Source: Neorhizobium huautlense (GTDB lineage Bacteria > Pseudomonadota > Alphaproteobacteria > Rhizobiales > Rhizobiaceae). Taken from it: DNA of 64,000 bases. Under the pieces are notes generated by a model, which saw only the letters and a list, made by a program, of their open reading frames with translations, ran no database searches and was not told the DNA's origin. Shown piece by piece: positions 45,540-51,491 of the stretch. Positions within the stretch are counted from its first letter, which is position 1; the number at the start of each line of letters is the position of its first letter. The stretch lies in contig NZ_PVBM01000020.1 of assembly GCF_002968575.1 (NCBI RefSeq), forward strand, positions 1 to 64,000. Direction: 5' to 3'. A program made the position numbers and the translations under genes.

Positions 45540-46592
45540 TCAGTCCAGATCGAGCGCCTTCCGCCCGGCGGCCAACGCATCCACCGCCCGGAAGACGTCG
45601 ATCTCTGCCCATGTCCGTGTGTCGCGGTAGCTGGGATAGAGCGCGAAGGTCGCGGCGACCAGTTGATCAACCGTCGGCCGCGCCTGCCGGCGCGGCACCA
45701 TTGCCTTCGAAAACCGGCTTAGCCTGTCCTCTGTCAGTCCCCAGCCGGAGTAGAAGGGCGCGCCATAACAACGCACAGGCAGACCGCGTAGCAAGGCGTC
45801 CAGCCCGAACTGGCTGGAAACGGTCCAGACCTCGTCCACTGCCGCCAGTATGGAAGACACCGAGACCGCATCCGAGAGCAGGATCACGCCCGGCGTCCGG
45901 GCTGCTTTTTCCGTCAGATAGCCCTTGCGGAAACCGGCCATCACATCCGGATGCGTGCGCACCACGCATTGAGCGCCGCTTGCCACGGCATCATCGAGCA
46001 TCCGTGCGAAGCTTTCCGGCGAGCCGCCGGACATCGGAACGGAAACGTCGCCGAACACCTGGTCCACCAAGAGAATACGACGCTTCGTCGTCCGCTCCAG
46101 TTTAAGCTCCCGATGCGGCAGGTTGTTGTATTTCGAGAGCCTGTTTTCCACGAGCGCGTTGCGGATATCCGACCCAAGCGCTCCCACATCCATCTGCGCC
46201 GAACCCGCGATCAATTGCTCCAGGCGAGACGCCCTGGAAGCATCCACCGGCATGCCCAGATCGTCGACAGCGATGGAAATCGGCAAGGTATTCTCCTTGC
46301 CTAGTCCCACGGAGCGAATGTACCCATCTTCGAGATACCAATATGGCAGCCTGCGGACCCAGGCTATGCGGCGCGCCAGCTTGGCGGTGGATCGTCCACC
46401 CCAGAACACGATACCCCTGATCCCCGGAGTAAATGCAGACTCCAATTTCTGCAAGCTGAAATAGTGCTTCAGCCATGGAGCAGATCGCGTCACATAATGG
46501 GTGGCGCCGAGGCGCATGCCGACAGGAGGGTACCAATCTTTCATGAAGTCGATCCCGACCCTCTCCCCGAACATTCCTGAACGGCTGCTCAC
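45540..46592 (-). CDS. KpsC-like capsule polysaccharide protein (beta-Kdo transferase family)
   Basis: A 350-residue protein of the Capsule_synth family that includes KpsC and KpsS. Those enzymes add beta-Kdo residues that form the lipid linker of group 2 capsules. Family landmarks are YWYLEDGYIRSVGLG near residue 85, RRILLVDQVFGDVS, VVRTHPDV, VSSQFGLDALL near 270 and FYSGWGLTEDR. It is one catalytic module, roughly half of a full KpsC. The GTG start overlaps the ilvH stop (GTGA). An ATG at 46574 is the alternative. No other capsule gene is in the window, and its coupling to a branched-chain amino acid operon is odd. Confidence 0.82.
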   Translation of the reverse strand: MSSRSGMFGERVGIDFMKDWYPPVGMRLGATHYVTRSAPWLKHYFSLQKLESAFTPGIRGIVFWGGRSTAKLARRIAWVRRLPYWYLEDGYIRSVGLGKENTLPISIAVDDLGMPVDASRASRLEQLIAGSAQMDVGALGSDIRNALVENRLSKYNNLPHRELKLERTTKRRILLVDQVFGDVSVPMSGGSPESFARMLDDAVASGAQCVVRTHPDVMAGFRKGYLTEKAARTPGVILLSDAVSVSSILAAVDEVWTVSSQFGLDALLRGLPVRCYGAPFYSGWGLTEDRLSRFSKAMVPRRQARPTVDQLVAATFALYPSYRDTRTWAEIDVFRAVDALAAGRKALDLD

Positions 46593-47161
46593 ATTCCCTG
46601 GGGACCGCGGTTCATAGCGGCAATGCCGGTACGGCAGACCTCGACCAGGCCGAGCGGCTTCATGACCGCGACGAACTGATCGATCTTGGAGGACTTGCCG
46701 GTGATCTCGAGGATGAAATGCTCGACCGTGGCATCGACCACCTTGGCGTGGAAGGCGTCCGCGAGCCGCAAGGCCTCGGCGCGATGCTCTCCCCGCCCGA
46801 CGACCTTGACCAGGGCGACCTCGCGCTCGATCGGCCGCTCCTGACCGAGTTCGCGAGCGCGCACGGTCAGATCGACGACGCGATGGACCGGCACGATCCG
46901 TTCCAGCTGTGCCTTGATCTGCTCCAGAACCGTCGGCGTGCCGCGCGTCACGATGGTGATGCGGGAAAGATGGGCCTCGTGTTCAGTTTCCGAAACCGTG
47001 AGGCTTTCGATATTGTAGCCGCGCCCGGAGAAAAGCCCGATCACCCGGGCAAGCACTCCCGGCTCATTGTTGACGAGAACGGAGAGCGTGTGGCTCTCCG
47101 CCTTAGCCGTTTCCGGCGCAATGAAATAGGCAGATCCGGTCGGTTGCTGATGCGCATTCAT
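46589..47161 (-). CDS. ilvH: Acetolactate synthase small (regulatory) subunit
   Basis: Regulatory subunit that activates the catalytic subunit and makes it valine-sensitive. The 190 residues begin with a short extension, then the ACT domain (SHTLSVLVNNEPGVLARVIGLFSGRGYNIESLTVSET, residues about 23-60), where valine binds in homologues, and a C-terminal ACT-like domain (RAEALRLADAFHAKVVDATVEHFILEITG). It follows ilvB by 48 bases in the same operon and overlaps the next gene, a KpsC-like protein. Expression should follow the attenuator before ilvB. Confidence 0.97.
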   Translation of the reverse strand: MNAHQQPTGSAYFIAPETAKAESHTLSVLVNNEPGVLARVIGLFSGRGYNIESLTVSETEHEAHLSRITIVTRGTPTVLEQIKAQLERIVPVHRVVDLTVRARELGQERPIEREVALVKVVGRGEHRAEALRLADAFHAKVVDATVEHFILEITGKSSKIDQFVAVMKPLGLVEVCRTGIAAMNRGPQGM

Positions 47162-47209: not shown

Positions 47210-49003
47210 TCAGACGAGCTGGCGGCCCTTCGCATCGATCGCATTGGCAACCGCTTCGTCACTTGCTTCGTCCGGCAGCAGCATCTCGTTATGCGCCTTG
47301 CCCGAGGGAATCATCGGGAAGCAGTTGGCGAGATTGGCAACGCGGCAGTCGAAGATGACCGGCTTCTTGACCGCTACCATCTCCTCGATCTTACCGTCCA
47401 GTTCCTTCGGATCGTCGCAGTACATGCCAACGGCGCCGTAGGCTTCAGCAAGCTTCACGAAGTCCGGCATCGCTTCCGTATAGGAGTTTGACAGGCGGTT
47501 GCCATGCAGCAGCTGCTGCCACTGGCGCACCATGCCCATATACTGGTTGTTCAGGATGAAGATCTTGACCGGCAGATTGTACTGGATCGCCGTCGACATT
47601 TCCTGGATGCACATCTGGATCGACGCGTCGCCGGCAACGTCGATGACGAGTGCATCCGGATGGGCGACCTGAACGCCGATTGCGGCCGGGAAGCCGTAGC
47701 CCATAGTGCCGAGGCCGCCGGAGGTCATCCAGCGATTGGGTTCCTCGAAGTCGATGAACTGCGCCGCCCACATCTGATGCTGGCCGACCTCGGTGGTGAT
47801 GTAGGTATTGCGGCCTTTCGTCAATTCATGGAGCCGCTGCAGCGCATATTGCGGCATGATGACATCGTTGGAGTTCTTATAGGAGAAGGACTTGCGGGCC
47901 CGCCAGCGGGCGATCTCCTGCCACCATTCTTCCGTCTGCGCTTTCGCCGGCTTCTTTGGCAGAGCCCGCCACAACCGAACCATGTCCTCCAGGACGCTGC
48001 CGACATCGCCGAGGACCGGGATATCGACGTGAACATTCTTGTTGATCGAGGACGGATCGATGTCGATGTGAACCTTGCGCGAGTTCGGCGAGAATGCGTT
48101 GAGGCGGCCGGTGATGCGATCGTCGAAACGGGCGCCGATGCAGACCATCACGTCGCAATCGTGCATCGCCATGTTGGCCTCGTAGGAGCCATGCATGCCG
48201 AGCATACCGAGCCAGTTCGTGCCGGACGCAGGATAGGCGCCCAGTCCCATCAGCGTGGAGGTGATCGGGAAACCGGTGAGCTCGACCAGTTCGCGCAGCA
48301 GGCGCGAGGCCTCCGGTCCGGAGTTGATGACGCCGCCGCCGGTATAGAGGATCGGGCGGCGCGCCGTGGCCATCAGATCGATCGCGGCCTGGATGGCCTT
48401 CAGATCGCCCTGCGTCCTCGGCTGATAGCTGATATTTGCAGCAATTTCGGGTTTCGGCGTATAGGTGCCCGTCGCGAACTGGATGTCTTTCGGGATATCG
48501 ACGACGACCGGACCCGGACGGCCGGTCTGGGCGATCCGGAAGGCTTCGTGGATGATGCCGGCGAGTTCGTTGACATCCTTGACCAGCCAGTTGTGCTTGG
48601 TGCAGGGGCGCGTAATGCCGACCGTATCGCATTCCTGGAAAGCATCCGAACCGATGAGCGTGGTCGGTACCTGGCCGGTCAAGCAGACCAGCGGCACAGA
48701 ATCCATCAATGCGTCCTGAAGCGGCGTGACTGCATTCGTCGCACCCGGGCCCGACGTCACCAGCATGACGCCGACCTTGCCGGTGGAGCGGGCGTAACCT
48801 TCAGCCGCGTGGCCGGCGCCCTGCTCGTGACGCACGAGAATGTGCTGAACCTCCTCCTGCTGAAAGATCTCGTCATAGATCGGTAGAACGGCACCGCCGG
48901 GATATCCGAAAATGTGCTCGACGCCGTTGTCCTTCAGCGCTCTCAGAACGATCTCTGCGCCAGTCATCCGGTTATCTGGCATCTGGTTATTGCTGTCCGT
49001 CAT
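47210..49003 (-). CDS. ilvB: Acetolactate synthase large (catalytic) subunit
   Basis: Thiamine-diphosphate enzyme that condenses two pyruvates, or pyruvate with 2-oxobutyrate, in the first common step to valine, leucine and isoleucine. The 597 residues show the glutamate region (GYPGGAVLPIYDE near 35-47), the PYR domain (HEQGAGHAAEGYARSTGKVG), the FAD-like middle domain and the ThDP site GDASIQMCIQEMSTAIQYNLPVKIFILNNQYMGMVRQWQ. It leads the ilvB-ilvH operon and is preceded by a leader peptide and attenuator at 49066-49180. The start follows a 62-base leader after the terminator hairpin. Confidence 0.98.
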   Translation of the reverse strand: MTDSNNQMPDNRMTGAEIVLRALKDNGVEHIFGYPGGAVLPIYDEIFQQEEVQHILVRHEQGAGHAAEGYARSTGKVGVMLVTSGPGATNAVTPLQDALMDSVPLVCLTGQVPTTLIGSDAFQECDTVGITRPCTKHNWLVKDVNELAGIIHEAFRIAQTGRPGPVVVDIPKDIQFATGTYTPKPEIAANISYQPRTQGDLKAIQAAIDLMATARRPILYTGGGVINSGPEASRLLRELVELTGFPITSTLMGLGAYPASGTNWLGMLGMHGSYEANMAMHDCDVMVCIGARFDDRITGRLNAFSPNSRKVHIDIDPSSINKNVHVDIPVLGDVGSVLEDMVRLWRALPKKPAKAQTEEWWQEIARWRARKSFSYKNSNDVIMPQYALQRLHELTKGRNTYITTEVGQHQMWAAQFIDFEEPNRWMTSGGLGTMGYGFPAAIGVQVAHPDALVIDVAGDASIQMCIQEMSTAIQYNLPVKIFILNNQYMGMVRQWQQLLHGNRLSNSYTEAMPDFVKLAEAYGAVGMYCDDPKELDGKIEEMVAVKKPVIFDCRVANLANCFPMIPSGKAHNEMLLPDEASDEAVANAIDAKGRQLV

Positions 49004-49065: not shown

Positions 49066-49089
49066 AAAAAAAGGCCCCTTGAGGAGCCT
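49066..49089 (-). terminator. Attenuator terminator upstream of ilvB
   Basis: In the minus-strand transcript, AGGCTCC-TCAA-GGGGCCT (one G-U pair in a 7-bp stem) is followed directly by a run of U (49066-49071). It lies between the leader peptide and ilvB, 62 bases before the start, so it is an intrinsic terminator inside an operon leader: the mark of transcription attenuation. Confidence 0.85.
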
Positions 49090-49096
49090 GTCTTTC

Positions 49097-49146
49097 CGCG
49101 CATGGGTGGCTGTCGCCGGATGGTTACACCATCCTGCCCATGCGCG
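49097..49146 (-). promoter_or_regulatory. Pause/antiterminator hairpins overlapping the ilv leader peptide stop
   Basis: A perfect 10-bp inverted repeat (CCCATGCGCG and CGCGCATGGG, 49097-49106 and 49137-49146) encloses a 6-bp hairpin (GGATGG, 49118-49123, with CCATCC, 49129-49134). The leader stop codon lies in the inner loop, so a ribosome's position decides which hairpin can form, as attenuation requires. I could not derive the exact exclusive pairing with the terminator arm by eye. Confidence 0.65.
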
Positions 49147-49180
49147 TTCCCACCACAATAAGAGCGATCGATATTTTCAT
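49124..49180 (-). CDS. Branched-chain amino acid leader peptide of the ilvBH operon
   Basis: An 18-codon open frame translating MKISIALIVVGTRMGRMV. Six of residues 3-10 are Ile, Leu or Val (codons ATA, ATC, CTT, ATT, GTG, GTG), the control codons expected of a leader that senses charged Ile-, Leu- and Val-tRNA. It ends in TAA inside a hairpin loop, 34 bases before the attenuator terminator. No ribosome site precedes the ATG. The predicted -10 element lies only eight bases upstream, so the message probably starts at or within two bases of the AUG. That leaderless arrangement is known for the trpL peptide of Sinorhizobium meliloti. Confidence 0.82.
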   Translation of the reverse strand: MKISIALIVVGTRMGRMV

Positions 49181-49188
49181 GGCGCGAA

Positions 49189-49217
49189 GTGTTAGCCAGA
49201 TAAATTGCATTCGTCAA
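49189..49217 (-). promoter_or_regulatory. Promoter of the ilv leader transcript
   Basis: On the minus strand TTGACG (49217-49212) and TAACAC (49194-49189) are spaced 17 bases, a good sigma-70 pattern. The spacing to the leader peptide ATG at 49180 puts the transcription start at about 49182-49180. In the gap beyond, up to 49397, I see only the AT-rich and G-rich leader of the divergent ATPase gene. Confidence 0.65.
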
Positions 49218-49397: not shown

Positions 49398-51491
49398 TTG
49401 CCGAACAATGATCCCCTCCGTTCCTCCTCTGCGGGAGAGCAGGATCGCCGCGATCTCCATAAACCGGGCAATCGCTTGCTCGGCCGTGTGGTCGCGTGCA
49501 ACGGCGCTCATGCCACCATTTCAGCGATCGCCGAAGGTGGTGAGACCGACCTCACTGAGCTCTGGTCAGTGGGCCGGCTGATCTCGATCAGCGTTGGCGA
49601 AAACCGCGTCGTGGCATTGGCCTATGCCATGGAAACTGGCAGTCGTGGCTGGCGCGAGGGGGAAGACACAGGGTTCCAGATCGAAGCCGAACTGCTGGGC
49701 GAAGTCCGCAAGGGACCGAACGGCCGGGATGAGTTCTCCCGCGGCATCTCCCGTTATCCCTATCTCGGCGCCGTAGCGCACCGCATCCGGGCTGCCGATC
49801 TCCTGCGCATCTACGATACCGGCAAGGACGACACCTGCGCGATCGGCAAGCTCACGCAGGACGAGAACATCGACGCTGCAATCCACATCCCCTCGATGTT
49901 GTCGAAACACTTCGCTATTGTCGGCTCCACCGGGGTGGGCAAGTCGACGGCAGTCTCGCTGCTTCTCCACAAGGCGATCGAGGTGGACCCGAAGCTGCGC
50001 GTCCTGATTCTCGATCCGCACAACGAATTCGCCTCTGCCTTTCCCGAGCACGCCGTCGTCATCGACACGGATACGCTCGACCTGCCCTTCTGGCTGATGC
50101 GGCTTGAAGAGTTTTCCGAAGTGGTCTTCCGTGGCCGCCCCGCCGTGCCTGAAGAGCTCGACATCCTCCGCGACCTCATTCCGGACGCCAAGCGGGCCTT
50201 TCGCGGAAGCGATTCGTCGCTGATGCGGCGCACGACCGAAAAAAGCTCCGTGACCGCCGATACCCCCGTGCCTTACCGCATGGCGGATCTTCTGGCGCTG
50301 ATAGACGAACGCATAGGACGCCTGGAAGGCCGGAACGAGAAGCCGTACCTGCGTTCACTGAAGATGCGCGTCATGTCGGCCATCAACGACCCGCGCTACC
50401 ACTTCATGTTCTCCAACAATACGATCCATGACACGATCATGGAGACGATCGCGCATATCTTCCGCATTCCAGGCGGGGATAAGCCAATCTCCACCTTCCA
50501 GCTTGCGGGCATCCCCTCGGAAGTGGTCAATTCCGTCGCCTCGATTCTGTGCCGCATGGCGTTCGAACTGGCGCTCTGGAGCAACGGCGCCATTCATATG
50601 CTGGTCGTCTGCGAGGAAGCGCACCGCTACGTGCCAGCCGATCGCGAGCTCGGTTTCTTCCCGACGCGCCAGGCTATTTCCCGCATTGCCAAGGAAGGCC
50701 GAAAATACGGGGTCTCGCTCGGGATCATCACCCAGCGCCCCGGCGAACTGGATCAGACGATCCTGTCGCAGTGCTCGACCCTCTTCGCCATGCGCCTTTC
50801 CAACGACCGGGACCAGGAAATTATCAAGTCGGCCATTCCCAACTCGTCGATTTCGACCACCAGCTTCCTTTCCTCGATCGGAAACGGCGAGGCGATCGCC
50901 TTCGGTGAGGCCATAGCCGTGCCGATGCGCATGAAGTTCGCGCGTGTCGAGGAAAGATATCTGCCGAAGGCCAATGGCGTTGCCGACAAGGGCTGCGAAG
51001 ACACACCTGATACGGTCGATCTGCGCGCCGTGGTCGCGCGCCTGCGGTCCGTCACCGGACCTGATATCGCTGCGTTTCAGCAGAGCTACGCTGCCGCCAA
51101 CCCTGCATTCGGCGACAACACACCGGCGCCCGACGACGAAACGGATACCGACTTCCCGCCGGCAGATGAAGCCGAACTGGAACGATGGGCGCAGGAAATC
51201 CGGACCAACGGCCACGTCGTGATAAACCGCACGACGCCTCTCGACGACCCGCAGCCCGAACCCTACAGGCCGGACATGCTGCCGCGCCCGACTTTGTCGG
51301 AGCCGCCGATGCCGCGCCCGGATCGTTTCGCCGATCTGCGCCGTGAACGCGGTGGCGAGCCTTCGCAGCCGATATTTCAACGCCCACCCGCATCTCAAAA
51401 CCCGCGTCCAAATCCGCTTCTCCGACGCGAAGGATCGCTCCGCGAGAGTTTGCTGAAGAAACCGCTCAGCAGCCTCTACGATAAAGACTAA
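49398..51491 (+). CDS. HerA-like DUF87 ATPase
   Basis: A 697-residue P-loop ATPase of the HerA/FtsK superfamily, presumably a hexameric DNA-translocating motor. An N-terminal HAS-barrel-like domain (residues about 25-150) precedes Walker A GSTGVGKST (176-184) and Walker B with paired glutamates (VVCEEAHRY, E406-E407), then an arginine-finger region around GLIITQRPGELDQ. The last 130 residues are Pro/Asp-rich and look disordered. The start is a TTG with GGGGG six bases upstream, and no ATG occurs for 75 codons. The NurA nuclease that partners archaeal HerA is absent nearby. Function in this group is not established. Confidence 0.85.
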   Translation: MPNNDPLRSSSAGEQDRRDLHKPGNRLLGRVVACNGAHATISAIAEGGETDLTELWSVGRLISISVGENRVVALAYAMETGSRGWREGEDTGFQIEAELLGEVRKGPNGRDEFSRGISRYPYLGAVAHRIRAADLLRIYDTGKDDTCAIGKLTQDENIDAAIHIPSMLSKHFAIVGSTGVGKSTAVSLLLHKAIEVDPKLRVLILDPHNEFASAFPEHAVVIDTDTLDLPFWLMRLEEFSEVVFRGRPAVPEELDILRDLIPDAKRAFRGSDSSLMRRTTEKSSVTADTPVPYRMADLLALIDERIGRLEGRNEKPYLRSLKMRVMSAINDPRYHFMFSNNTIHDTIMETIAHIFRIPGGDKPISTFQLAGIPSEVVNSVASILCRMAFELALWSNGAIHMLVVCEEAHRYVPADRELGFFPTRQAISRIAKEGRKYGVSLGIITQRPGELDQTILSQCSTLFAMRLSNDRDQEIIKSAIPNSSISTTSFLSSIGNGEAIAFGEAIAVPMRMKFARVEERYLPKANGVADKGCEDTPDTVDLRAVVARLRSVTGPDIAAFQQSYAAANPAFGDNTPAPDDETDTDFPPADEAELERWAQEIRTNGHVVINRTTPLDDPQPEPYRPDMLPRPTLSEPPMPRPDRFADLRRERGGEPSQPIFQRPPASQNPRPNPLLRREGSLRESLLKKPLSSLYDKD

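Follow-up and report, generated by a model that had tools for sequence, protein, structure and literature searches.

A predicted leaderless Ile/Leu/Val leader peptide and attenuator upstream of ilvB in Neorhizobium huautlense, and its two start layouts across the order

Leader attenuators of ilvB and ilvIH have been in print for alphaproteobacteria since 2004. The alphaproteobacterial ilvB leader peptide was credited by Corbino et al. 2005 (PMC1273637) to Vitreschak et al. 2004, a work that is also cited where a cis-regulatory element of the ilvIH genes of Sinorhizobium meliloti is listed (PMC2573895), and the Caulobacter ilv leader, which precedes ilvBN and combines tandem Ile/Val codons with a terminator, has been described with reference to Tarleton et al. 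1994 (PMC4117421). A published near-leaderless precedent is ilvL of C. glutamicum, whose transcript starts one nucleotide from the start codon of a 15-residue ilv leader that is followed by a terminator; its antiterminator and terminator share three bases, whereas the stem and the terminator described here do not overlap (PMC11857589). Within the Rhizobiaceae, trpL of S. meliloti was found by experiment to be leaderless (PMC10117765), and like the locus described below, for which a leaderless start is predicted, it combines a leaderless leader peptide (peTrpL) with an attenuator sRNA (rnTrpL) (PMC10117765, PMC7298713). However, it senses Trp, and its trans roles have been demonstrated, whereas any such role of the ilv leader described here would be hypothetical. 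Leaderless short open reading frames that sense an amino acid also occur in mycobacteria, where poly-cysteine frames are described as attenuating the translation, not the transcription, of downstream genes (Canestrari 2020, in PMC13236596 and PMC9031893). In the open-access portions of the literature, no mention of a leaderless start or of a missing antiterminator was found for alphaproteobacterial ilv leaders.

The window analyzed here, a stretch of 64,000 nucleotides from Neorhizobium huautlense, carries an attenuator-type leader on the minus strand, upstream of ilvB and then ilvN (Table 1). The leader matches the Rfam family RF02502 (Atu_C8, a Rhizobiales sRNA) over its full length, positions 1-122 of 122, on the same strand and directly before ilvB, with a score of 121 bits (curated cut-off, 50 bits). 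The family differs in being typed as an sRNA gene, and the search output names neither a reading frame nor an attenuator. The name C8 reportedly comes from Wilms et al. 2012. The attenuator with a leader peptide that the initial annotation had assigned to ilvB was thus supported, but both Rfam and the literature already describe its kind: it is a further copy of a described element and not a new one.

Table 1. Features of the ilvB leader region and its downstream genes in the window
Feature	Position	Strand	Basis
−35 element TTGACG	49212..49217	−	sequence; TTGAC spacing in close leaders
−10-like element CTAACA, AUG 9 bases downstream	49190..49195	−	sequence; spacing shared with the genome's own trpL
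ilvL leader peptide frame, 18 codons and TAA, MKISIALIVVGTRMGRMV	49124..49180	−	sequence; frame conservation
Regulatory core Leu-Ile-Val-Val, codons 7-10	49151..49162	−	conservation; codon avoidance
Outer stem, 5′ strand	49137..49146	−	ViennaRNA MFE; own-versus-swapped strand pairing across families
Outer stem, 3′ strand	49097..49106	−	ViennaRNA MFE; own-versus-swapped strand pairing
Inner hairpin P2, contains the stop codon	49118..49134	−	compensatory changes, 103 unique leaders
Small inner hairpin GGC-GACA-GCC	49108..49117	−	MFE; small hairpin also in the RF02502 structure line
Intrinsic terminator AGGCTCC-TCAA-GGGGCCT and 7 U	49066..49089	−	sequence; MFE; pattern in relatives
Rfam RF02502 Atu_C8 match, 121 bits	49056..49178	−	covariance-model search
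ilvB, acetolactate synthase large subunit	47210..49003	−	NCBIfam NF006581, 1209 bits, cut-off 974
ilvN/ilvH, acetolactate synthase small subunit	46589..47161	−	NCBIfam NF008864, 225 bits, cut-off 119

Several elements were recovered as initially annotated. The 18-codon frame is rich in Ile, Leu and Val at positions 3-10 (residues 3, 5, 7, 8, 9 and 10, plus 18), so that a run of regulatory codons for the amino acids of the operon, the LIVV core, precedes ilvB, and no Shine-Dalgarno word was seen before the AUG in the sequence of the window. The predicted −10 element lies near the AUG, at 9 bases when read as CTAACA or at 8 bases when read as TAACAC. In the MFE fold, the stop codon falls within the inner hairpin of a branched stem, next to which the terminator hairpin forms. 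This intrinsic terminator, located between the leader frame and the first gene, consists of a 7-bp stem (49089-49083 / 49078-49072) and seven U residues. The last U is at 49066, which leaves 62 bases to the start codon of ilvB at 49003. On the other side of the leader, a divergent 697-codon open frame with a TTG start and a Walker-type GSTGVGKST motif (49398-51491, plus strand) faces away from the ilv promoter.

The comparison with close relatives that the initial annotation had called for found these elements retained. Among 81 close leaders, comprising the best 80 of at least 596 named ilvB loci and the window, a leader frame of 16-19 codons was present in 81/81, and pattern matching found the stem in 79/81 and the terminator in 80/81. 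The exceptions were L068, which has a variant stem, and L075, which partly lacks both. The latter, from a metagenome-assembled genome, keeps the leader frame but neither the 3′ stem half nor the 5′ arm of the terminator, and it is either misassembled or a constitutive variant. Adding more leaders of this family and discarding L075 and duplicates gave a set of 103 unique leaders, and the stem pattern matched all of them except the variant stem of L068 (102/103). The distance from the ATG to the stem was 29, 32, 35 or 38 nt, a single frame in all 102 pattern-matched leaders, and the observed element is therefore beyond chance. A run of four Ile, Leu or Val residues alone is weak evidence, being found in 4 of the 429 short ATG frames of the window. 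The core of the leaders reads Leu-Ile-Val-Val or Ile-Leu-Val-Val and has a distinct codon choice, although the counts are not independent because the leaders are related: across the 81 leaders, GTC was used for 0/177 core Val codons and CTG for 0/95 core Leu codons, against 48% and 41%, respectively, in seven genes of the window. CTT made up 65% of the Leu codons (11% in the window genes), GTA 24% of the Val codons (3%) and ATT 52% of 98 Ile codons (20%). The core codons GTG (68% versus 35%) and CTC (35% versus 34%) are not rare in the window genes.

We then considered where the message begins. TTGAC starts 35-38 bases upstream of the leader ATG in 81/81 close leaders, compared with 56 of 10,627 control ATGs (0.5%) in the same loci. 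In 70 of the 80 named loci, the peptide pattern left a single candidate ATG; the other 10 offered more than one, of which the ATG with the expected TTGAC spacing was taken, and the unbiased count is therefore 70/70 plus the window. A ribosome-site-like word preceded the frame in 1/81 leaders, and a C stood directly before the ATG in 79/81. As these 81 leaders were sought by ATG alone, they provide no test of AUG start codon use. In trpL of the same genome (L125, trpE upstream region; MTISMNIGNWWWARFARP), CTAACA is followed by 9 bases and the ATG, a spacing identical to that of the ilv leader, but the TTGAC box is missing from its usual place, which counts against the comparison. A terminator-like hairpin and a T-run lie downstream of this trpL. 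The RF02502 match begins with the G of the AUG, a position compatible with transcription from the A but no proof of it. The leaderless start of the initial annotation thus stands as a prediction, backed by the promoter spacing, the missing ribosome site, the −10 spacing of trpL and the ATG starts of comparable leaders described below, and transcription probably starts at the leader AUG.

Across the order, 60 ilvB upstream regions from 48 families were sampled, mostly one or two per family; 6 of the 60 were picked since an earlier search had matched those genomes. Leaders with an Ile/Leu/Val core were found in 40 regions from 29 families. In 10 of the 40 (families f1, f22, f23, f28 and f42), TTGAC is located 35-41 bases before the start codon, a layout that we call near; all 10 start with ATG, and one has a ribosome-site-like word. 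In 26 leaders, TTGAC is located 53-68 bases before the start codon (far layout), and here a ribosome-site-like word was present in 20/26 and the start codon was GTG or TTG in 4/26. L137, a far-layout leader, carries an additional TTGAC at −21. Neither layout fits the remaining four of the 40 leaders, one of which has a GTG start, and GTG or TTG starts accounted for 5 of the 30 leaders outside the near layout. Because none of the 40 leaders was intermediate between the −35 to −41 and −53 to −68 groups, we regard them as one attenuator in two start layouts, for which no report from rhizobia was found in the portions of the open-access literature at hand. The leaderless layout is uniform in the examined leaders of the window's family and scattered in other families, most leaders of which have a 5′ UTR instead, usually with a ribosome site, a distribution which suggests that the start layout may have switched repeatedly.

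In the remaining 20 of the 60 order regions (L131-L133, L138-L140, L142, L145, L147, L149, L159-L162, L166-L168, L175, L176 and L179), our simple rule found no Ile/Leu/Val leader. A TTGACC box persists in several of these 20 regions, a trace that a lost attenuator might leave. Across the class, outside the order, the rule fired in 5 of 31 ilvB upstream regions (the L213 region is incomplete). One of these, L207 (MHRLVVIVGKWRMGR), is a plausible ilv leader candidate, and the other four matches were judged to be due to chance. This outcome is no evidence of absence, because the rule is crude and the Caulobacter ilvBN leader has been published. Under strict filters, RF02502 matched 240 of 247 genomes drawn from the window's family, the seven without a match having listed sizes of 1.2-2.0 Mb. 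It also matched 47 of 60 relatives from the genus, family and order.

The stem structure was examined by covariation and by strand swapping. Across the 103 unique leaders, compensatory double changes at three pairs of the inner hairpin P2 numbered 35, 24 and 3. Covariation elsewhere (17-30, 17-27, 40-61, 74-115 and three weaker pairs, each with 3 double changes) was read as a clade effect, since the pairs concerned are isolated and have no stacked neighbor. For the outer stem, the two strands of a leader paired better with each other than with those of another family in 37 leaders from 29 families (Mann-Whitney p of about 4e-16, a value that ignores relatedness). The stem starts 0-14 nt past the last core codon (5 nt in 18/37 leaders), and its distance to the terminator is 0-18 nt (4 nt in 10/37 and 0-7 nt in 36/37). 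These spacings are bounded by the search itself, which covered 22 bases downstream of the core and 30 bases upstream of the terminator. The values of L134 (13 and 18) probably reflect an inner hairpin caught as the stem. L151, the terminator of which was unrecognised by the script, was lost from this set, and L129 and L130 were not included.

The initial annotation had also proposed a search for mutually exclusive hairpins. Equilibrium folding with a ribosome mask formed the terminator in every state, in the E. coli trp control likewise (0.82-0.83), and was for this reason dropped for truncated transcripts, which were cut just before the 3′ arm of the terminator and folded statically. L081 and L151 were lost from this set, as the script did not recognise their terminators, and L075 was kept. 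The E. coli trp control was positive, with the 5′ arm of the terminator paired at 0.71 with the ribosome at the Trp codons and at 0.00 with the ribosome at the stop codon. In the 80 family leaders, mean pairing of the 5′ arm was 0.36 at the best stall position, 0.46 at the stop codon and 0.22 without a ribosome, and in 35 leaders of other families the corresponding means were 0.39, 0.45 and 0.40. Pairing of at least 0.5 at some stall position was seen in 9/80 family leaders and 8/35 leaders of other families. Mutually exclusive hairpins were thus not found, in that the static folds of these 80 and 35 leaders revealed no stall-specific pairing of the terminator arm of the kind expected from a trp-type antiterminator; a kinetic switch could escape such folds.

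Other pairings were inspected as well. In the 81 leaders, pairing of the U-run and the bases following it with upstream RNA averaged 0.98 when a ribosome at the stop codon opened the stem, 0.63 when the ribosome stood at codon 8 and the stem was closed, and 1.06 without a ribosome. In this model, the terminator stem appears to be longer on average when the upstream stem is open, clearly so in the window, but the meaning is uncertain and the index separates the states poorly, because the ribosome-free leader scores highest. A pairing between the Val codons and the 3′ strand of the stem was rejected since, as judged by eye on the alignment, Rhizobium- and Mesorhizobium-type leaders do not share it. 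An interaction of the 5′ AUGAAAA with the U-run was rejected as well, as it is expected anyway from an A-rich start and a U-run; it is predicted without a ribosome in, for example, L041 and L055, where it may be trivial. Pairing of the window's terminator arm with the downstream GAGGAGCC was seen by eye solely in L002-L004 among the best 80 of at least 596 loci, and it cannot act as an antiterminator because this segment is located past the terminator.

The frame, core, codon choice, stem, terminator and promoter spacing are all read directly from the sequence, and a ribosome-sensed transcription attenuator of ilvB(N) is probably the explanation that covers them as a whole, with a probable response to branched-chain amino acids (BCAA). 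Transcription would begin at the leader AUG or at most about 3 bases from it, and a ribosome would load at the 5′ AUG and translate Leu-Ile-Val-Val. When charged tRNAs are plentiful, the ribosome would reach the stop codon inside the branched stem and open the stem, the terminator would halt the polymerase, and the terminated short product would be the RNA known as Atu_C8. When charged tRNAs are scarce, the ribosome would pause on the core codons, some 5 bases short of the stem, which would stay closed as the polymerase proceeds into ilvBN. If the regulatory sign is the usual one, the closed stem would have to favor read-through without overlapping the terminator. We regard this last step as doubtful, and a ribosome held on the last Val codons would mask part of the stem, which counts against the model.

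In a classical three-hairpin attenuator, a stalled ribosome would release a segment for pairing with the 5′ arm of the terminator, and this 2:3 antiterminator would be too weak or too kinetic for the folds used here to reveal. We give this alternative serious weight while leaning somewhat against it. The ilvBNC switch of C. glutamicum works with an overlap of only 3 bases, M. tuberculosis ilvB1 has been modelled with such a switch, and the 9/80 and 8/35 leaders that reached 0.5 arm pairing at some stall position point the same way. However, mean pairing at the stall was no higher than at the stop codon in either the 80 or the 35 leaders, although the control works, and covariation in the 103 leaders backs the inner hairpin, the other covarying pairs being isolated. 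Conversely, the leaders could form a two-hairpin class, present in 29 of the 48 sampled families, that has no antiterminator at all. The stem, some 5 bases after the codons and some 4 before the terminator, would hinder termination by its nearness, translation to the stop codon would be needed for termination so that an untranslated leader would read through (the opposite of trp), and leaderless and ribosome-site-led starts would have replaced each other several times within the class. Taken as a whole, we consider this reading unlikely.

Both the start of the message and the role of its products can be read differently too. A start of the leader further upstream, with the AUG-proximal promoter as a chance match, would fit the room for a 5′ UTR that exists in 26/40 order leaders. 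This is very improbable given that the spacing is kept in 81/81 close leaders at a control rate of 0.5%, that ribosome-site-like words precede 1/81 close and 1/10 near-layout leaders versus 20/26 far-layout leaders, and that ATG is the start codon of 10/10 near-layout leaders. Similarly improbable, if slightly less so, is an RNA that acts chiefly in trans, as an sRNA or small mRNA comparable to rnTrpL/peTrpL, with a second role for its peptide. Such a role would agree with the filing of RF02502 as an sRNA gene in Rfam and with the trans-acting sRNA and peptide that arise from the S. meliloti trpL attenuator. The peptide itself argues otherwise: residues 3-6 and 12 are highly variable, residues 13-18 fall together with the RNA stem, position 17 (M, T, V or A) changes together with its pairing partners, and the peptides of other families share mostly the Ile/Leu/Val run and usually a basic residue after it. 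Conservation among the 82 leaders with 18 codons is found mainly in the core and at Gly11, and position 2 is Lys in 63/82. The trans-acting ilv peptide suggested by the initial annotation therefore found no support, as residues beyond the core are either variable or overlap the stem, and conservation at the sequence level lends none to a peptide with a function of its own. The ribosome-sensed attenuator of ilvB(N) with a leaderless start remains our preferred reading.

Additional copies of the element were found in a few genomes. Two RF02502 matches per genome were present in 9 of the 247 family genomes and in G015, one of the 60 relatives, and the second copy was read in 6 of these 10 genomes. 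In G060 (L187), G255 (L192/L193) and G339 (L194/L195), it lies before a second ilvB, identified by a check in G060 and judged from the translation in G255 and G339; each of the two ilvB genes in these genomes is thus preceded by a separate attenuator. In G015 (L112/L230), G319 (L188/L228) and G383 (L190/L229), an ilv attenuator is located directly before an MFS exporter gene and not before ilvB. These exporter-linked copies carry a promoter, a leader peptide and a terminator, and the neighboring frames differ by eye. For all three exporters, the nearest model was that of Bcr/CflA efflux proteins, with scores (179, 163 and 173 bits) below its cut-off of 200.9 bits.

The absence of an antiterminator, if confirmed, would mean that the textbook switch is not universal for amino-acid attenuators. 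The exporter-linked copies indicate that the device can pass to other genes. Finally, one attenuator in two start layouts amounts to a natural experiment and could serve as a test bed for leaderless initiation in attenuation.
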